Shown here one piece after another: positions 9,832 to 18,568 of a DNA stretch of 54,171 bases. The translations under genes were made by a program, and so were the position numbers. Position 1 is the first letter of the stretch; each line of letters opens with the position of its first letter. A model generated the notes under the pieces. That model searched no databases. It was not told the DNA's origin and was given only the letters and a program-made list of their open reading frames with translations. Source of the DNA: Aminivibrio sp. (lineage in GTDB: Bacteria > Synergistota > Synergistia > Synergistales > Aminobacteriaceae); the NCBI RefSeq assembly GCF_016756745.1, contig NZ_JAESIH010000045.1, forward strand, positions 1 through 54,171, read 5' to 3'.

Positions 9832-10836
9832 ATGTTTTTCGCACTGCTGTTTTTTTCCGCCCTCGCCCTTCTTCTGTTTGCCCCTTCCGCAGGAAGCGCC
9901 CGGACCAGGACGTTCTTCATCACGAAGGAGCAGGCTTACAACGGCATGCTCAGGTCCGACATCCCCCCCGCCCTCGTAATCGACGACGGTGACACCGTGG
10001 TGTTCAACACGGTCATGCTCCTGGGCGGGAATCTTTCTCCGGACTTGACCTTTGACGACATGCTCGCTCTCCGCACGGAGATGAAGGAAAAGGGCATCGG
10101 CGTCTACGCCTTTACAGGACCCTTCCACATCAACGGGGCCGAACCCGGCGATACCCTGGAGGTACGGATCAGGCGGCTCGTCCCCGGCAAATACGCCGTA
10201 ACCCACATCTATCCCGACCATATGAACATCGGAGGCCTGCCCGAAGGATTCAGCAAGGGCTTCCTGAAACCTCTCTACCTGTCGGAGGACAGAAAGACCA
10301 TTGAATTCGCCCCCGGCGTGACCCTGCAAACCCGGCCGTTCCTGGGCACCATGGCCGTAGCGCCCAGGAACGGCGAAGAGCTGCCCCCGGCGGTCCCGGG
10401 TTACTTTGCCGGAAACATGGACAACAAGGAACTTGTAGAGGGAACAACCCTTTACATCCCCGTGAACGTTCCCGGGGCTCTCTTCATGGCCGCGGACGCC
10501 CACGCCCTCCAGGGGGACGGGGAGGTGAGCATCGCCGCCGCCGAGACCTATTTTGAGGAAGCGGAGCTTCAGTTCGTGGTCCGGAAGGATATGAAACTCC
10601 ACTACCCTCTGGCCGAGTCGCCGACCCACTGGATCGTCATGGGATTCCACCGCGACCTGAACGAGGCCATGAAGACGGCCATCCGTGAAGCAGTCTCGTT
10701 CCTCATGAGGGAAAAGGGGCTCTCCCGGGAGGAAGCCTACTCCCTGTGCAGCCTCGCAGTTGATTTCCGCGTCACCCAGGTGGTGGACGGCGACAAGGGC
10801 ATCCACGGCATGATCCCCAAGTCGGTCTTCAGTTGA
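9832..10836 (+). CDS. Secreted acetamidase/formamidase-family protein
   Basis: A 334-residue protein of the acetamidase/formamidase family, which hydrolyses short-chain amides to acid and ammonia. Diagnostic segments are GPFHINGAEPGDTLEVRI, AGNMDNKELVEGTTLYIP and VPGALFMAADAHALQGDGEV, with the AHALQGDGE metal/active-site region near residue 225. Unlike most cytosolic members it begins with a signal peptide (about 22 residues ending GSA), so it probably acts in the periplasm. GGAGGTG seven bases upstream fixes the start at 9832. It is a single-gene unit with its own extended -10 promoter and a hairpin after the stop. Confidence 0.85.
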   Translation: MFFALLFFSALALLLFAPSAGSARTRTFFITKEQAYNGMLRSDIPPALVIDDGDTVVFNTVMLLGGNLSPDLTFDDMLALRTEMKEKGIGVYAFTGPFHINGAEPGDTLEVRIRRLVPGKYAVTHIYPDHMNIGGLPEGFSKGFLKPLYLSEDRKTIEFAPGVTLQTRPFLGTMAVAPRNGEELPPAVPGYFAGNMDNKELVEGTTLYIPVNVPGALFMAADAHALQGDGEVSIAAAETYFEEAELQFVVRKDMKLHYPLAESPTHWIVMGFHRDLNEAMKTAIREAVSFLMREKGLSREEAYSLCSLAVDFRVTQVVDGDKGIHGMIPKSVFS

Positions 10837-10942: not shown

Positions 10943-13900
10943 CTATTCCGGTTCGGGCGAGGCAGCCTGGTTCTTCCTGGCGGCTCTCCGCTCGCGGAAT
11001 CCCCAGTAGAGTTTGTAAACCGCGGGCACGACCAGCAGTGCGATGATGCCTCCGGCGACAAGACCGCCGATGGCAACGAAGGCGATGGGCTGCCGGAGGG
11101 CTCCGCCCTGTCCCGTTCCCAGGGCAAGGGGCACCATGGAGATAACGGCGGCGGAGATGGCCATGAAGAGCATTCTGAGACGGATGGCGCAGGCCTTCTC
11201 GATGGCGACGGCGGCCGGCTCACCTTCATCTTTCCTTCGGGTCTCTGCGTAGTCGATGACCACGATGGCGTTGTTCACCACCAGCCCCACCAGCATGATC
11301 AGGCCGATAAGGGCGAAAATGGAGATGGCGACCCCCGACAGCAGCATGGAGGGAATGACTCCCAGGGCGGAAAGGGGCACCGTGAGGATGATCACGAAAG
11401 CGAAGAACCATGACTCGAGGATGGCCGCGATGATGATAAACGTCAGCCCTATGGCGAGGAAGAGCGCCCGGCCGAGCTCACCGAAGGTCTCCTCCATGAA
11501 TTCGGCGTCTCCTCCGTAGTCGATGGAGTACCCCTCGGGAAGATCAAGGTCCGCTATGGCCTGACGGGCATTGGCCGTGGCCTCGCCGACACTGATGTAG
11601 CGGGCGTCGGCCTCGACGGTGACCGCCTTCTGCCTGTCCTCCCGGACGACTTCCGTCGGTCCGTCCCTCCACTGCACATCGGCAAATTCCTTCAGGGGCA
11701 TGAGGCCGTACGTTGTCATGATCGGCAGGTCCTGGACCTTGAAGATATCCTTCGCCTTGTCCGGACTGATCCTGGCCTTGATGTCGTATTCGAAGCCGCC
11801 CTGGCGGAATTTCCCCGCGTCCATGCCGACAAGGTAGCCGTAAATCACGTGGGACAGGGTGGTCATGTCGATGCCGAACTGGGAGAGGCGCCACCTCACC
11901 GGCAGGACCTGCAGCTCGGGCTTGCCCATTTCCACGTCGATACCGGCATCCACGATTCCGGGGACATGACGGATCCGGTCCCGTATGGTCTCAGCGATCC
12001 GGTAGAGGGTTTCAAGCTCTTCCCCCTTGACCACAATCTGGATGGGCTTTCCGCCTCCCATGTTCTTCCGGAATCCGCTGACCGACCCGTCCACGCCGGG
12101 CATGGCGTTTACGAAGGGACGGATGCGGTCCGCCATCTCCATGGTGGAGGGACGGTCCGGATCTTCGGCGAAATAGGCTTCTACGGTCGCCTTGTGGGTC
12201 CCCTGGTTTCTTCCGGAGGCGCCTACTGTTGAGACAACGTATTCCAGCGACGGAAGGGTCTGCCGGATGTGATTCTCGATCTCCTTCACCCGGTCCTGGG
12301 TGACGAATACCGGGGTGTTGCTGGGCAGGGTGATGTCGACCGTCATGACGCCGCTGTCGGTGCGGGGCATCATCTCTGACCCGATAAGCCCTCCCATACT
12401 GAAGGCGCCGTAGGTGAGCCCGAGGAAGATCACGACGGTGATCACCGGATGGGCAAGGCACCGCCTCAGAAAGAAGAGGAACAGCTCCTCGAACCCCGAG
12501 TAGAACCAGTCCCACCATCCGCAGAGAATGCGCCCCATTCTGGGAACACCTTTGTCAGGCTTGATTCTCGCCGCCATAGAGGGCGTAAGCGTCAGGGAAA
12601 CCCAAAGGGAGAAGAGGGTGGCGTAGACGATGGTCATGGCGTACTGGACGAGGAACTGACCGGCGATTCCCCTCATGATGGCCACGGGAAGGAACACCCC
12701 GAGGTTCGTGGCTGTGCCGGCGATAACCGACAGGGATATTTCCACCGTTCCCTTTTCCGCCGCCTCCTCGGGGGAATACCCCATGTCCCGGAAGCGGTAG
12801 ATGTTCTCGATGATGAGGATAGAGTTGTTCACCAGGACGCCCATGGAGATGGCAAGCCCCAGGGAACTCATTATGTTCAGGGAATAGTCGTGCATGACCA
12901 GGGGCATGAAGGTTGCGAAGAGCGCCACGGGCATGGCCACGGAGACGATGAATGTGGCCGAAAAACGCTTGAGGAACAGGTACAGCACCACCACGGTGAG
13001 GAGAATGCCGAATCCCATGTCCCGGAGCACGTTCTTGACCGACGACTCGATAAACTTCGTATCATCGAAGGGAATTTCCACCGTGAAGTCCGGCATGGTC
13101 TTCATGAGAGCGCCGAGCTCCTTCTTCACCAGCTCTCCCGCCCTCACCACGTCGGAATTGGGGCGGGCGCTGATCCGGAGCTGCACCACCGGATTTCCGT
13201 TCACCCGGGCGATGGACCGCACGTCCTGCTCGCCATCCACCACCGTTCCCAGGTCCCTCAACCGCACGGGGTTTCCCGATGCGGTGGGGATCATGATGTT
13301 CTCCAGTTCGTCGGCCCTGTTGAATTCGCCGATGAGGCGAAGCCACGTTTCGTCCTTCTCCTGGGTGATGTACCCGGAAGGATTGGTGACGTTGTTTGCC
13401 GCCACCGCCGCCGCCAGGGTCTGGATGCTCACCCGGTATTCGTTGAGGGAGACGGGGTCGAGCAGGATCCTGATCTCCCTGTCCCGGCCGCCGGTCACGT
13501 TGGTCTGGCCGACCCCCTCCACCCGGGAAAGACGGGGGACAATGTTGTCCTCGATGATCTTTTTCGCTTCCTTCTCCGGAAGAGAGCTTGTGAAGGCTAC
13601 GACCATGAAGGGCTGGGCGTTGATGTCCACCTTCCTGAAGATGGGCTCGTCAACGCCGTCGGGAAGCTTGTTCCGGGCTGACTTCACCTTGTTGGACACG
13701 TCCACGAGGGCCTGATCGACGTTCACGTCCACTTCCATTTCGAGGACCACGAAGGAGTTGCTCTCCGCGGAGTAGCTCGTGATCTTGTCCAGTCCCTCGA
13801 GGTCGGCAATGGCGTCCTCCAGGGGCTTCGTCACCAGCTGCTCGATCTCGTTGGGGCTGGCGCCCTCGTAGACGGTCTGGATCACCACGATGGGAATGTC

Positions 13901-14023
13901 CACCTTGGGAAGCAGGGCCACCGCAAGCTGGTTGTAGCTGCTTACCCCGAGGAGGACGAGCACAAACACCATCGCCCAGGTAAAAACAGGGCGTTTTATG
14001 CAGAAACGTACAAGACCGCCCAT
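10943..14023 (-). CDS. RND-family efflux pump, inner-membrane transporter
   Basis: This 1026-residue pump has the AcrB/HAE-1 layout: a helix at the start, a large periplasmic loop, six helices (about residues 335-530), a second large loop, and six more helices (about 850-1010). It is the third gene of the TetR-adaptor-pump operon, two bases after the adaptor gene. Proton relay positions are unusual: helix 4 reads GVLVNNSILIIEN (N399, N400), where AcrB has two aspartates, and helix 10 reads GLVVNNAIVVIDYA (N917, N918). No outer-membrane channel gene is nearby, so it would borrow one. The substrate is unknown; local TetR control suggests a small toxic molecule. Confidence 0.9.
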   Translation of the reverse strand: MGGLVRFCIKRPVFTWAMVFVLVLLGVSSYNQLAVALLPKVDIPIVVIQTVYEGASPNEIEQLVTKPLEDAIADLEGLDKITSYSAESNSFVVLEMEVDVNVDQALVDVSNKVKSARNKLPDGVDEPIFRKVDINAQPFMVVAFTSSLPEKEAKKIIEDNIVPRLSRVEGVGQTNVTGGRDREIRILLDPVSLNEYRVSIQTLAAAVAANNVTNPSGYITQEKDETWLRLIGEFNRADELENIMIPTASGNPVRLRDLGTVVDGEQDVRSIARVNGNPVVQLRISARPNSDVVRAGELVKKELGALMKTMPDFTVEIPFDDTKFIESSVKNVLRDMGFGILLTVVVLYLFLKRFSATFIVSVAMPVALFATFMPLVMHDYSLNIMSSLGLAISMGVLVNNSILIIENIYRFRDMGYSPEEAAEKGTVEISLSVIAGTATNLGVFLPVAIMRGIAGQFLVQYAMTIVYATLFSLWVSLTLTPSMAARIKPDKGVPRMGRILCGWWDWFYSGFEELFLFFLRRCLAHPVITVVIFLGLTYGAFSMGGLIGSEMMPRTDSGVMTVDITLPSNTPVFVTQDRVKEIENHIRQTLPSLEYVVSTVGASGRNQGTHKATVEAYFAEDPDRPSTMEMADRIRPFVNAMPGVDGSVSGFRKNMGGGKPIQIVVKGEELETLYRIAETIRDRIRHVPGIVDAGIDVEMGKPELQVLPVRWRLSQFGIDMTTLSHVIYGYLVGMDAGKFRQGGFEYDIKARISPDKAKDIFKVQDLPIMTTYGLMPLKEFADVQWRDGPTEVVREDRQKAVTVEADARYISVGEATANARQAIADLDLPEGYSIDYGGDAEFMEETFGELGRALFLAIGLTFIIIAAILESWFFAFVIILTVPLSALGVIPSMLLSGVAISIFALIGLIMLVGLVVNNAIVVIDYAETRRKDEGEPAAVAIEKACAIRLRMLFMAISAAVISMVPLALGTGQGGALRQPIAFVAIGGLVAGGIIALLVVPAVYKLYWGFRERRAARKNQAASPEPE

Positions 14024-14025
14024 GG

Positions 14026-15120
14026 CTATTTGCCTTCCGTTCCGGGGGCGGCCTCCCCCGTCACAACGACGAGAGCGTTATCAGACAGCAGGTTATGCCC
14101 CCTGACGACCACGAGGTCTCCTTCCGAAAGGCCGGCTTCTATCGAAACCGAGCCGTTCTGCCCCTCGCCGGGAACGATCTCCCTCAGCTTCGCCCTTTCG
14201 TTCTCGACCACGTAAACATAGGCCTTGTCTCCCCTTCTCTGGATGATTTCCGAGGGGATGACGATCAGGTCCTTCTTTTTCTCCACAAGGAAACGGGCCT
14301 CCACGTGGGTTCCGGGAAGCACGTCGAGACCGTTCAGGCAGACATCCACGGGATACAGTCCCGATCCCTGGACGGCCTCGGGGCTGATCCTCTTTATGGA
14401 GCACCTGGTCTTCTGCCCGTCGCTCAGCACTTCCACGGGAGTCTCCCTGTTCAGGCTCAGGATGTCCTTCCGGGAGACCATGATCTCTGCCTCAAGGTCC
14501 ATAAGGTCGATGATGACCAGCAGGGGCTTCCCGTCGGAGGCCACTTCTCCCGGTTCGACGGACCGGCCGGCCACGATGCCGTCAATGCTGGCCCGGATCT
14601 GTGTGCGGGCGAGGGTGGACTGGGAGGACTGGAGTTTCGCCTCCTCGCTCTTCATCCTCGAAAATGCCTGCTCCACCTGGTCCTTGGAAACACCGCCCGA
14701 CTTGTAGAGTTCGGAAAGTCGTTCATAGTCCCGAACAGCTTTCTCGTAGCTCACCCTGTCGGCGGCGACGGAAGCCAGGTAATCCTGGGAGGAGAGGGTC
14801 AGCAGCACCTGCCCCGCCTTCACTTTGTCGCCTATCTGGACGTGGACCTCCCGAACGATTTCCTTCACGTAGGACGTGACGGTCTGGCTTTTTCCGGCCT
14901 TTACCCGGCCGTAGTAGCTCCTCCATATTTCCCAGTCCTGCCGGGAGAGCCGCATCACATCGACCGGAACGGGCACTTCCTCTTTCTGTTCCATGGCAAT
15001 CGCGTCGGCGGCGGTCTCCTGGAGCTTCGCCTGCACCCTGACCACCATAAAGACGCCCCCTGCACAGAACAGGAGGATCCAGAACACTACATTCAGCCTT
15101 GTAAAAATTGATTTTGGCAT
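14026..15120 (-). CDS. RND periplasmic adaptor (membrane fusion protein)
   Basis: A 364-residue adaptor with one N-terminal membrane helix (about residues 10-28). Then come a biotinyl-lipoyl-like half domain (VREVHVQIGDKVKAGQVLL), an alpha-hairpin coiled coil (about 115-170), the second lipoyl half (IRASIDGIVAGRSVEPGEV), and a beta-barrel and membrane-proximal domain ending near EGDLVVVRGHNLLSD. It links the RND pump to an outer-membrane channel. It overlaps the TetR gene by 28 bases and has GAGGAAGC just before its ATG. Confidence 0.9.
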   Translation of the reverse strand: MPKSIFTRLNVVFWILLFCAGGVFMVVRVQAKLQETAADAIAMEQKEEVPVPVDVMRLSRQDWEIWRSYYGRVKAGKSQTVTSYVKEIVREVHVQIGDKVKAGQVLLTLSSQDYLASVAADRVSYEKAVRDYERLSELYKSGGVSKDQVEQAFSRMKSEEAKLQSSQSTLARTQIRASIDGIVAGRSVEPGEVASDGKPLLVIIDLMDLEAEIMVSRKDILSLNRETPVEVLSDGQKTRCSIKRISPEAVQGSGLYPVDVCLNGLDVLPGTHVEARFLVEKKKDLIVIPSEIIQRRGDKAYVYVVENERAKLREIVPGEGQNGSVSIEAGLSEGDLVVVRGHNLLSDNALVVVTGEAAPGTEGK

Positions 15121-15764
15121 GCTTCCTCTGTCCCTTCCGGTGACAAAATTCTCTCGTACATATCCAGCGCAAAGGCCAAAAATCTCTCAATGCACACGGT
15201 TCCCGGGGCCTTCTCCAGATTTTCGAAAAGCCAGGAATCCATGGTGTGCCCCATGGCCTGGAGGACACTCCGGAGGAGATCCGGAGGCACGTCCTTTCGA
15301 ATCGCTCCCAGCTCCTGGCCCCGCTTCAGAAGGTTGGCGGTCCACCGCTCGACCTTCCTGAAGTTTTCCCGAAATTCGGGGCTCCCCTTCATTCCCGTGC
15401 CGGGTTCGATCAGGTTCCGAACGACCTTGACGATCCCGAGATTTCCGGCTCCGTAGCGTACAGCCTTCTCGTAATACAGCCGGCAGGCTGTCCAGAACTC
15501 TTCCCTGGTTTCGGGCATCTTCAGCTCTCCCACCGAGGAGAGAAACTGCCGCTCCACCTCGTCGAGAACGGTGAGATAGAGGCTATCCTTGTTATCGAAA
15601 TAGTAGTAGACCACACCCTTGCTCAGGCCTGACCGCTCGATAATCCTGTTGTAGGAGGCTCCGTCGATGCCGTTGGCGGCAATTTCCTCCATGGCGGCTT
15701 CGATGAGGGCCGCTCTTTTTTCATCATCAATCTTCCTGGGTCCGTAACGCACGGCGCACCTCAT
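15093..15764 (-). CDS. TetR/AcrR-family repressor of the efflux operon
   Basis: A 223-residue regulator with an N-terminal helix-turn-helix: EKRAALIEAAMEEIAANG followed by IIERSGLSKGVVYYYFDNK (about residues 10-60), the standard TetR DNA-binding pattern. The C-terminal ligand-binding half is unassigned. It is the first gene of the operon, and a palindrome within its promoter (15790-15807) is the obvious autoregulatory operator. ATG 15764 is preferred; a GTG one codon earlier is possible. AGGA lies six bases upstream. Confidence 0.9.
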   Translation of the reverse strand: MRCAVRYGPRKIDDEKRAALIEAAMEEIAANGIDGASYNRIIERSGLSKGVVYYYFDNKDSLYLTVLDEVERQFLSSVGELKMPETREEFWTACRLYYEKAVRYGAGNLGIVKVVRNLIEPGTGMKGSPEFRENFRKVERWTANLLKRGQELGAIRKDVPPDLLRSVLQAMGHTMDSWLFENLEKAPGTVCIERFLAFALDMYERILSPEGTEEACQNQFLQG

Positions 15765-15786
15765 CACCTTTCCTGTTTAGACCGAC

Positions 15787-15815
15787 AGGTTAGACCATCC
15801 GGTCTAATCTGTCAA
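15787..15815 (-). promoter_or_regulatory. Promoter and TetR operator of the RND efflux operon
   Basis: The minus strand shows a perfect -35 TTGACA (15815-15810), a 17-base spacer and -10 TAACCT (15792-15787). Within the spacer and into the -10 sits the palindrome TTAGACC-GGAT-GGTCTAA (15790-15807), with 7-bp perfect arms. A repressor bound there would block RNA polymerase directly. Confidence 0.8.
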
Positions 15816-15995: not shown

Positions 15996-18098
15996 TCAGC
16001 CGTTCCCGGACACTCCGGTCCGGAGGATTCTTGCCGCGTTCAGCGTGGCGAGGAGGGCCACCCCCACGTCGGCGAAAACCGCTTCCCACATGGTGGCGAC
16101 GCCGAAGGCGCCCATGACCAGCACAAGCCCCTTTACCCCCAGGGCGAAGGCGATATTCTGCCGGACAATGCTCCGGGTTCTCCGGGCGATTTCAATGCCC
16201 TCCGCCACCCCCAGGGGATCGTCCCGCAGTAGCACCCCGTCGGCCGCCTCGATGGCGGCGTCCGCCCCCAGACCGCCCATGGCGAAGCCCGCGTCGGCAG
16301 CGGCAAGAAGAGGAGCGTCGTTCATGCCGTCGCCGACGAAGAGGGTTGTTCCCCCTGCCTCCTCCCTGATTCGCCTGAAGGAATCAAGCTTGTCGGCGGG
16401 AAGAAGCCCTCCTTCCCAGAAGTCGAGGCCAAGCTCCCGGGCAAGTTTTCCGGCGTTCTCCGGCCGGTCTCCCGACAGCATGCCCACGATGCTCACCCCA
16501 AGCTTCCGCAGGCGGTCCACCGCTTCCCGTGCCTGTTCCCTGGGGGTGTCCTCCACCACGAGAAAGCCTGCGTACCGCCCATCCCGGGCCACGTGGACCA
16601 CCGCTCCGGGCTTCGTACCGGGATCCCCATCGACCGAAACGCCGTGCCGCTCCAGGAGGGCCGCATTCCCGGCGAGAATCTCGCCCCCATCGAGAACCAG
16701 CCGGACCCCCAGCCCGGGGTACTCCTCCACGGGAAGGGCGGGACCCTCCCCTGCCGCTGCAACCACAGCCCGGGCAACGGGATGGTTCGATCCACGTTCG
16801 GCCGCCGCCGCCGTTTCGAGCAGTTCAGGGCCGGTCATGAAGAAGGACGGATGGACCTCCGTCACCCGGAACACCCCCATGGTGAGGGTGCCGGTCTTGT
16901 CGAAGAGGACGGCCTTCGTACGAGCCAGGGTCTCCAGCACATTGCCTCCCTTCAGCAGGATTCCCCTCCGGGACGCGGCGCCCATGCCGCCGAACAGGGC
17001 GAGGGGAACGGAGATCACGAGGGCGCAGGGGCAGGACACCACAAGGAAGACCAGTGCCCGGTACCCCCAGTCCCGGAATCCTCCAAGACCGGCGAGAGGA
17101 GGCACCAGGGCGAGAAGGGCGGCCAGGACGACCACCGAAGGGGTGTACCACCCGGCAAAGGACGTGATGAACCGCTCTGTGGGGGCCTTTCGCTCCCGGG
17201 CCTCTTCGATCAGACGAAGACCTTTGGAAAGGGTGGTTTCTCCGAAGGGGCGGAGCACTATCACCGTGAGGGTGCCGCCGAGGTTGACGGTCCCGGCGAG
17301 CACTTCGCTCCCCTCCGACACGTCCCGGGGAACCGATTCTCCCGTCAGGGAGGAAGTATCCAGGGAGGATGTCCCCTCAAGCACCTTTCCGTCGAGGGGA
17401 ACCCGCTCCCCCGGCTTCACGAGAAGCATGCTCCCGGCCGCGACGTTCTCCGCCCTGACCGATTTCCACTCCCCCTCTTCGAGCACCGTCGCCCGGTCGG
17501 GACGGATGTCAAGAAGCGACAGGATGGAACGGCGGGACCTCTCCACGGCAAGGGACTGTACCAGCTCTCCCGTTTCGTAAAACAGCATCACCGCCACCGC
17601 TTCCGAGAACTCGCCGATGGCGAAGGCACCGCCGGTAGCGGCGGTCATGAGAAAGAACTCGTCGAAAAAGGCCCCCCGGCGGATGTTTCCCGCCACGGTA
17701 CGGAGGACCTTGATTCCCGCCGTCAGGTAGGCCGCTGTGTACAGAAGGATCCGGACCGTATCTCCGAGGGGCAGGAAGAGGGCGGCCAGCCAGAGCAGGG
17801 CTCCGGCGGAAAGACGGATCACGTCTCCCTTCGGCGGGGAGGACGCCCCTTCCGGAAGGCGTTCTTCCGAGACCACCACCCCCGGCTCGATGGACGACAC
17901 GACGGTCCGGATGCTGGAGATGAGTTCAGCCGAAGGCCGCTGATCTTCGAGAGAAACCCTCATCCTTCCTGTGACGAGGTCGATGGTTGCCGACGAAACC
18001 CCGGGCAGGACAGCCACGGCTTTCTCAATTTTCGCCGAACACTGGGTGCAGCTCAGCCCTTCGAGGGAGAGGCGGATTTCACCGGCACCGTCAGCCAT
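15996..18098 (-). CDS. Zn/Cd/Pb-type P1B heavy-metal ATPase
   Basis: A 700-residue metal efflux ATPase. It has an N-terminal heavy-metal-associated domain with CTQC (residues 17-20), the actuator TGES motif (252-255), the metal-selecting helix motif CPC (356-358), phosphorylation site DKTGT (400-404) and hinge GDGMNDAPLL. CPC with an adjacent ArsR gene of zinc-sensor type points to Zn2+/Cd2+/Pb2+ export (ZntA/CadA group) rather than copper. Its ATG overlaps the end of the arsR gene by eight bases, so the two are translated together. Confidence 0.92.
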   Translation of the reverse strand: MADGAGEIRLSLEGLSCTQCSAKIEKAVAVLPGVSSATIDLVTGRMRVSLEDQRPSAELISSIRTVVSSIEPGVVVSEERLPEGASSPPKGDVIRLSAGALLWLAALFLPLGDTVRILLYTAAYLTAGIKVLRTVAGNIRRGAFFDEFFLMTAATGGAFAIGEFSEAVAVMLFYETGELVQSLAVERSRRSILSLLDIRPDRATVLEEGEWKSVRAENVAAGSMLLVKPGERVPLDGKVLEGTSSLDTSSLTGESVPRDVSEGSEVLAGTVNLGGTLTVIVLRPFGETTLSKGLRLIEEARERKAPTERFITSFAGWYTPSVVVLAALLALVPPLAGLGGFRDWGYRALVFLVVSCPCALVISVPLALFGGMGAASRRGILLKGGNVLETLARTKAVLFDKTGTLTMGVFRVTEVHPSFFMTGPELLETAAAAERGSNHPVARAVVAAAGEGPALPVEEYPGLGVRLVLDGGEILAGNAALLERHGVSVDGDPGTKPGAVVHVARDGRYAGFLVVEDTPREQAREAVDRLRKLGVSIVGMLSGDRPENAGKLARELGLDFWEGGLLPADKLDSFRRIREEAGGTTLFVGDGMNDAPLLAAADAGFAMGGLGADAAIEAADGVLLRDDPLGVAEGIEIARRTRSIVRQNIAFALGVKGLVLVMGAFGVATMWEAVFADVGVALLATLNAARILRTGVSGNG

Positions 18099-18465
18099 GG
18101 ACGTCTTCCTCCCCTGAGGCGCTGTGGCGGACGTGCCGGAAGCCCTGCTCGAAGATGGTTCTCACGTGGTCGTCGTCGAGACCGTAGATGGACGACCGTC
18201 CCTTCCGGGCGACCCGCACCAGGCGGGCCTGCTTGAGCACCCTGAGCTGGTGGGAAATGGCCGACTGGTTCATGGAGAGCAGCGCCGCTATGTCCGCCAC
18301 GCAGAGATCGGAAACGGAAAGAGCACAGAGTATCTTGATCCTCGTGGTGTCGCCGAAGACCCGGAACAGGTCGGCAAGCTCGTAGAGCATCTCGTCGGGA
18401 GGCATCTCCGTCGAGACGCGGGAAAGACCGTTCTGCATGGATTCATCCTGGATCAATTGGTTCAT
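18091..18465 (-). CDS. ArsR/SmtB-family metal-sensing repressor
   Basis: A 124-residue winged-helix protein (HTH around VADIAALLSMNQSAISHQLRV). The C-terminal helix carries D98, H100, H111 and H114, with exactly the spacing of the alpha-5 zinc site of CzrA/SmtB-type sensors. A single cysteine (C55 in SDLCVAD) lies where CadC-type sensors have CVC, so the classical alpha-3 cysteine site is incomplete. It should repress itself and the ATPase and release DNA on binding zinc or a similar metal. The start at 18465 follows AAGGAGAAG; the frame to 18519 runs into the operator. Confidence 0.9.
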   Translation of the reverse strand: MNQLIQDESMQNGLSRVSTEMPPDEMLYELADLFRVFGDTTRIKILCALSVSDLCVADIAALLSMNQSAISHQLRVLKQARLVRVARKGRSSIYGLDDDHVRTIFEQGFRHVRHSASGEEDVHG

Positions 18466-18478
18466 GGCTCTTCTCCTT

Positions 18479-18514
18479 ATATGAATATATGCGCACTTGT
18501 TCATATATTCATAT
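18479..18514 (-). promoter_or_regulatory. ArsR-type operator upstream of the metal efflux operon
   Basis: ATATGAATATATG (18479-18491) and CATATATTCATAT (18502-18514) are perfect 13-bp inverted repeats separated by ten bases. They contain the TGAA/TTCA core typical of SmtB/ZiaR/CadC operators. The site sits immediately upstream of the arsR ribosome binding site, in AT-rich DNA within a GC-rich region. Confidence 0.8.
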
Positions 18515-18568
18515 ACCACCGAAACGCTTTTTTTTCAACCCCCGGGAGAGCGAAACCATACCCTTCCC

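Follow-up and report, generated by a model that had tools for sequence, protein, structure and literature searches.

Our main result is a subfamily of RND permeases that lacks D407 (AcrB numbering), the aspartate of transmembrane helix 4 (TM4) that is taken to be protonated in every AcrB-like pump, and that extends beyond the single pump encoded in the window. By window we mean the whole stretch of 54,171 nt analysed here, which represents Aminivibrio sp. (Synergistota; Aminobacteriaceae) contig NZ_JAESIH010000045.1. As judged from alignments and trees, the loss of D407 is not private to the window gene but marks a whole multi-phylum subfamily, and a large natural clade without this residue is now known. 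No earlier description of D407-less RND pumps was found in the literature searched, which was covered in part; likewise, the accessible portions of PMC8277102, PMC3807786, PMC2279261, PMC4359379, PMC8749003, PMC13139501, PMC8300642, PMC5719797 and PMC5465479 do not describe them.

The permease of the window (1026 aa, positions 10943 to 14023, minus strand) was delimited from the list of open reading frames and a Pfam ACR_tran match (760.7 bits, cut-off 28) that spans residues 5-1005. Open reading frames and profile matches place it last in an operon that runs tetR, adaptor, permease along the minus strand. The first gene encodes a TetR-family regulator of 224 aa (15093 to 15767, minus strand; Pfam TetR_N, 46.7 bits), followed by an RND periplasmic adaptor, or membrane fusion protein, of 364 aa (14026 to 15120, minus strand; TIGR01730, 185.4 bits, cut-off 94.9). 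A palindrome of 30 bases (15784 to 15813, no strand assigned), read by eye from the sequence, is located 16 bases upstream of the tetR start. It has 13-base arms, matched at 12 of 13 positions around a 4-base spacer, and is a likely operator of the pump operon. No outer-membrane factor gene was seen adjoining the operon; several open frames elsewhere in the host genome match OEP (PF02321) above the cut-off, and in all four clade relatives tested (L042, L050, L124, L125) an outer-membrane factor is encoded beside the adaptor. The permease gene is flanked by the adaptor gene and by a formamidase/acetamidase-like gene (9832 to 10836; Pfam FmdA_AmdA), which is convergent with the pump operon and also found beside it in L007 and L008. 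Positions 15996 to 18519 encode a P-type ATPase that has an HMA domain and a CPC motif, and, overlapping it, a regulator of the ArsR type.

The permease is predicted to have the AcrB fold, with its transmembrane helices and periplasmic porter domain. An AlphaFold2 model (pLDDT 84.3, pTM 0.78) was matched by Foldseek to AcrD, CmeB and AcrB chains with a TM-score of 0.92, and it superimposes on MdtF (9qpr_A) with Z 51.5 and an rmsd of 2.7 over 993 residues. Many of its best structural matches are chains which we take to be O-state protomers. A preference of the model for this state was considered and dropped: a control model of the D407-bearing permease L003 matched the same kind of chains, and such matches are thus uninformative. 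With respect to the HAE-1 class, the window permease carries the TM11 arginine (R948, corresponding to R971) and is encoded together with an adaptor scoring above the TIGR01730 cut-off. It departs from the hallmark TM4 motif GX3DX6E, which includes D407 (PMC5719797, in the part available), since it reads G395 x3 N399 x6 E406. It also stays below the NCBIfam RND permease cut-offs (best 699.3, with 1250 needed), and four further clade members likewise reach none of them.

The earlier note had proposed that N399 and N400 replace the two relay aspartates of AcrB, and this was borne out. The segment VLVNNSILIIEN, translated in the frame running from 14023 to 10943, begins at residue 396 and includes both asparagines (12824 to 12829, on the minus strand like all codons given below). 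A MAFFT alignment with AcrB, MdtB, MdtC and CusA of E. coli equates N399 with D407, N400 with D408, N917 with K940, E406 with E414, R948 with R971 and A955 with T978; in phmmer alignments to MdtB, CmeB and MexB/MexY-type chains the NN pair is likewise placed under DD. The helix 10 pair N917/N918 (11270 to 11275; AcrB K940 and N941) is also present as proposed. We looked for an aspartate displaced by one helix turn within the same site and found none: TM4 residues 384-405 contain neither Asp nor Glu, and E406 (12806 to 12808) is the usual E414 of such pumps rather than a shifted relay acid.

Not every part of this altered relay is unusual. In the 84 aligned rows outside the clade described below, position 408 is Asn in 34 and position 940 is Asn in 46, while position 407 is Asp in 83. 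By these counts N400 and N917 are not unusual, and many RND pumps keep D407 alone, with Asn at 408 and 940. This is in good agreement with the available parts of two studies, in which D407 is invariant across 135 pumps (PMC8300642) and D408 is less conserved than D407, with many members carrying a single acid (PMC5719797). The relay loss claimed in the earlier note must consequently be narrowed: N408 and the helix 10 asparagines are normal in one-Asp pumps, and the exceptional part is the loss of D407, a residue near-universal outside the clade.

The loss recurs in the closest relatives. Of the nearest homologues, 29 were retrieved from further genomes within the same family (L007-L035; 55-95% identical); among them, eight carry NN, 21 carry MN and none has Asp; 15 of the 21 MN proteins have also exchanged E414 for Gln. 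Since independent genomes show NN or MN and never Asp, neither sequencing error nor chance accounts for the exchange. Whether the NN pair is lineage-wide, as the earlier note had wondered, has a divided answer: the absence of D407 spans a multi-phylum subfamily, and the pair itself varies among orthologues. An RND match was found in 58 of 59 genomes of the family, and the host encodes a second D-less permease (C77, L002; 44% identical). The D-less motif occurs in 90 of 185 Synergistota genomes versus three of 99 from Bacteroidota, the phylum of Arcicella, where the hits are motif matches unconfirmed as RND. A scan of contigs for the TM4 motif without Asp at 407 returned at least 118 stretches (L039-L156); as it excludes this Asp by design, its residue tallies are biased. 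In 65 of the first 80 scan loci (L039-L118) the motif lies in a frame matched to the permease by phmmer. These 65 come from Synergistota, Fibrobacterota, Lentisphaerota, Planctomycetota, Riflebacteria, Krumholzibacteriota, Latescibacterota, Cloacimonadota, Nitrospirota, Muiribacteriota and others.

The window gene is under strong purifying selection, with dN/dS values of 0.066, 0.084, 0.110, 0.134 and 0.229 against L007, L008, L009, L011 and L013, respectively. A decaying or mis-sequenced gene, which the loss of residues deemed essential might bring to mind, has a negligible probability in view of this selection, the intact frame, the same residues in independent genomes and the spread of the motif over Synergistota; this candidate was rejected.

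For tree construction, D407-bearing RND proteins were drawn from the same genomes as the D407-less ones, and the partial sequence L178 was omitted. A FastTree phylogeny computed without the motif columns places 50 of 51 D407-less rows in one clade of 51 rows with support 100; the exceptions are L056, which lacks D407 outside the clade, and L232, which carries Asp at 407 inside it. When the signature columns introduced below were omitted as well (140 rows), the D407 label again required three changes. A short IQ-TREE search over 56 rows, with motif and signature columns omitted, gave the clade an SH-aLRT value of 99. Across the trees, shuffling the label raised the mean number of changes to about 18 to 44. 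These trees indicate that D407 loss clusters in one clade, and that the window permease belongs to this well-supported group of D407-less proteins from Synergistota, Fibrobacterota, Lentisphaerota, Planctomycetota, Krumholzibacteriota and other phyla.

Some individual sequences deserve mention. L056 and L105 represent an independent D407 loss outside the clade (SN in TM4), without the polar signature and with K971. L209 and L212 are RND permeases inside the clade which lack the signature, look degenerate and are possible pseudo-pumps; L212 has lost nearly all relay residues (A407, C408, R414, T971), with its frame still open. Both were kept in the FastTree and 140-row trees and omitted from the residue counts of 54 clade rows versus 84 others. 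A further D407-less type, L239 (A407, F971), occurs in a genome of the window's family and groups with Nitrospirota and Muiribacteriota, which suggests acquisition by transfer.

Next to 407 itself, the columns that separate D407-less rows from the others include N449 in TM5, T478 in TM6, T351 in TM2 and S401 in TM4, polar uncharged residues at positions which in canonical pumps are mostly hydrophobic, or Thr in case of 449. In this comparison L056 was left out of the D407-less group and L232 was in neither group; in the residue counts L056 is one of the 84 others. The window permease carries all four residues: N440 (AcrB 449; 12704 to 12706), T469 (478; 12617 to 12619), T343 (351; 12995 to 12997) and S393 (401; 12845 to 12847). 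Asn at 449 is found in 54 of 54 clade rows versus one of 84 others (L202), and position 478 is Thr in 52 and Asn in two clade rows versus Thr in two of 84 (L168, L181), but the 54 rows were picked by N449 with Thr or Asn at 478, and these two clade counts are not independent. The three outside cases all have D407. The corresponding values are 52 of 54 versus 12 of 84 for T351, and 46 of 54 versus six of 84 for S401. N408, N940 and S481 are each kept in all 54 clade rows, which makes a simply decayed core unlikely; N941 (N918 of the window permease) also belongs to the near-invariant uncharged set.

Evidence free of this picking comes from the column comparison, which was split by residue 407 alone, and from a motif-blind sample, taken because the first protein set had partly been chosen by motif. 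The latter comprises 58 new proteins from two other phyla, selected by homology only as the best-scoring match per genome to the window permease; it is a part of all matches listed and is enriched for the clade of the window permease. All 15 D407-less proteins of this sample carry N449 and T478 together with T351 and S401. None of the 43 proteins with D407 has N449 or T478, and T351 occurs in 11 and S401 in five of them. For the sequences sampled, these counts show a near all-or-none link between the loss of D407 and the new polar set.

The spatial clustering of these residues rests on work on AcrB. According to the available parts of PMC8749003 and PMC13139501, L449 of AcrB lines the pocket around D407, D408 and K940, and S481 bonds to the relay; by analogy, N399/N400 of the window permease should be faced by N440 and S472 at least.

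The TM11 arginine behaves differently within the clade and outside it. It is kept in the window permease as R948 (11180 to 11182), and the 54 clade rows have Arg in 29, Lys in 21, Glu in three and Phe in one. Outside the clade Arg is found in 82 of 84 rows, the exceptions being the D407-less L056 (Lys) and L202 (gap), and all 82 D407-bearing rows there with a residue at 971 have Arg. A test of D407/R971 co-variation by independent pairs had three pairs only, with which significance is unreachable. In L054, L060, L182 and L310, Glu stands in place of R971, which reverses the charge where TM11 begins.

The best reading of purifying selection, adaptor linkage and invariant new residues is that the window permease is the inner-membrane part of a working tripartite efflux pump. 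In each of the 29 orthologue loci (L007-L035) the gene immediately upstream of the permease encodes an adaptor homologue, and a TetR homologue is found upstream in 16 of them (flanks up to 1.5 kb). In AcrB, either single exchange, D407N or D408N, abolishes proton translocation as well as efflux (PMC4359379, in the part available), and a pump with both changes must therefore be driven otherwise. The same variants could be taken to mean that energy coupling has been lost altogether, leaving an uncoupled or substrate-gradient-driven permease, i.e., a passive conduit across the envelope. We consider this improbable, as the transmembrane core of the clade is more constrained at these positions and has gained near-invariant residues, and the full porter domain is kept; for the three closest of the orthologues compared, dN/dS is 0.066 to 0.110.

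Still less probable is a mixed trimer in which the window permease is a non-driving subunit and a D407-bearing partner does the proton work. MdtBC is reportedly such a case, a mixed trimer for which a non-driving subunit was proposed, and the host does encode D407-bearing RND permeases (C5, C43, C19, C38). Heteromeric permeases of the MdtBC type, however, need two adjacent RND genes. Neither the window nor the 29 orthologue loci (flanks up to 1.5 kb) show a second permease next to the permease and its adaptor, and a phmmer search over L001-L186, many with short flanks, gave one RND frame per locus except for L046, whose two overlapping frames are read as one broken gene.

What, then, drives the pump? 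The earlier note had left a choice between other acidic residues and a different mode of operation, and this choice holds; the acid option suits the Synergistota paralogues and fails for the group of the window permease. Within hand-set TM ranges, the acids of the window permease are D335 (TM2), E406 (TM4), E428 (TM5), E849 (TM8), and D924 and E927 (TM10). In group I, i.e., the window permease and 28 orthologues, no compensating acid was found in the TM core beyond E406 and D924, and the other conserved acids (E326, D335, E428, E845, E849, E870, E927, E942) are located at or beyond helix ends. Position 979 in TM11 (I956 of the window permease; 11156 to 11158) is Ile or Val in all 29 group I rows and Asp in all 36 rows of group II, the Synergistota paralogues (27 distinct at 99.5% identity, L232-L236 left out). 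A further subgroup of Synergistota paralogues (L232-L235, L256) has D407 on the same polar background, with Thr at 979. As trees place this subgroup inside the D407-less clade, a regain of D407 is suggested. L236, which groups with L232, has neither D407 nor D979, and Asp at both positions was found in none of the proteins read. Synergistota show two solutions, Asp at 979 in group II and Ile or Val there in the group of the window permease, which does without Asp at 407 as well.

These acids are the basis of a reading which we rate as nearly equal to, and close behind, the Na+ reading given below, though itself well short of even: the pump would still be a proton/drug antiporter that uses D924 (TM10; AcrB E947; 11252 to 11254) and E406 near the cytoplasmic ends of their helices, helped by D979 in paralogues, with the polar set acting as a water wire. 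D924 could be a proton carrier, since Asp or Glu is kept at 947 in all 54 clade rows; it is also present in most D407-bearing pumps (Asp or Glu in 73 of the 84 other rows), and the AcrB variant E947A is wild-type-like in susceptibility (PMC8749003, in the part available). An acid at TM2 position 339 or 343 is found in 43 of 54 clade rows versus 42 of 84 others, in favour of a proton route. The exchange of D979 in group II for T979 in the D407 subgroup looks as if one interface acid suffices, and both D979 and the D407 subgroup indicate that a titratable acid is compatible with the polar core; L236, lacking both D407 and D979, speaks against the proton reading. In group I, E406 is replaced by Gln in 15 of 29 rows and position 979 is Ile or Val throughout, so that D924 would be the sole acid in mid-core.

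Our preferred reading, held tentatively and at somewhat less than even probability, is a functional tripartite pump, probably driven by Na+, in which a polar core free of carboxylates has taken the place of the relay. An ancient RND subfamily would have lost the protonatable TM4 aspartate and rebuilt its core from uncharged residues, namely N399/N400 and S393 in TM4, T343 in TM2, N440 in TM5, T469 in TM6 and N917/N918 in TM10. The porter domain would still move substrate by the L-T-O rotation common to such pumps, and the membrane switch would be something other than protonation of a TM4 carboxylate; most likely, a dehydrated Na+ would bind to and leave a site formed by Asn, Thr and Ser side chains and backbone carbonyls near G395. 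The window permease retains this arginine as R948; other clade members may tolerate exchanges of R971 because it has lost the relay anion with which it would pair. Na+ is favoured as the core residues are similar to those of known Na+ sites that lack carboxylates, e.g., the site of vcCNT, which according to the available part of PMC5465479 consists of an Asn side chain and carbonyl, a Ser side chain, and Val and Ile carbonyls.

The Na+ reading has points on both sides. The host encodes a beta subunit of a decarboxylase Na+ pump (PF03977, 502.1 bits), which counts for it; the lack of any Rnf/Nqr match in the host genome counts against it, as do the possible proton carrier D924 and the occurrence of N449 together with D407 in L202, outside the clade. 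Some clade members have Met, Ile or Ala at position 407, which is thus not an ion ligand in them. To our knowledge, the acids are retained in RND proteins linked to Na+, e.g., Patched and Dispatched. Extended to the subfamily, the proposal becomes that RND pumps of many phyla do without TM4 Asp protonation and use a carboxylate-free Asn/Thr/Ser cation site, which would make them the first HAE-type tripartite pumps without core acids that are driven by Na+ or otherwise not by protons; we put this forward more cautiously still, a shade below the proton reading.

A D407-less clade that is under selection and has matching new core residues makes the driving force of RND pumps directly testable, and its members offer natural contrasts on one background, as some have Asp at 407, some have it at 979 and some lack it at both positions.

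Among known systems, the Borrelia pump with BesB was considered as a precedent for an aberrant relay and dropped: this atypical tripartite pump differs in that the BesB adaptor lacks the hairpin, and the available parts of the texts on BesB treat this hairpin and not relay residues. CusA, a metal RND permease, has a single TM4 Asp and an overall architecture like that of the window permease; it differs in keeping this Asp at 407 (D-A), and the window permease reaches 383 bits with the CusA/CzcA profile, well below the cut-off of 701.45. Closer are the HAE-1 proton/drug antiporters MdtB/MdtC and AcrB, which share the whole fold with its 12 TM helices and its porter and docking domains, an adaptor partner, and the residues R971, E414 and S481; among solved chains, MdtB scores highest (830.3 bits with the A1 profile). 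Compared with AcrB, D407, D408 and K940 are all Asn in the window permease, T978 is Ala, and V351, A401, L449 and M478 are Thr, Ser, Asn and Thr, respectively. Likeness in the relay itself extends to the one-Asp RND pumps with VDN in TM4 and VVNN in TM10, among them L172 and, from the host genome itself, L003, which share N408, N940, N941 and R971 with the window permease; they differ by keeping D407 without the N449/T478 pair, and L003 in addition has Asp at 414.
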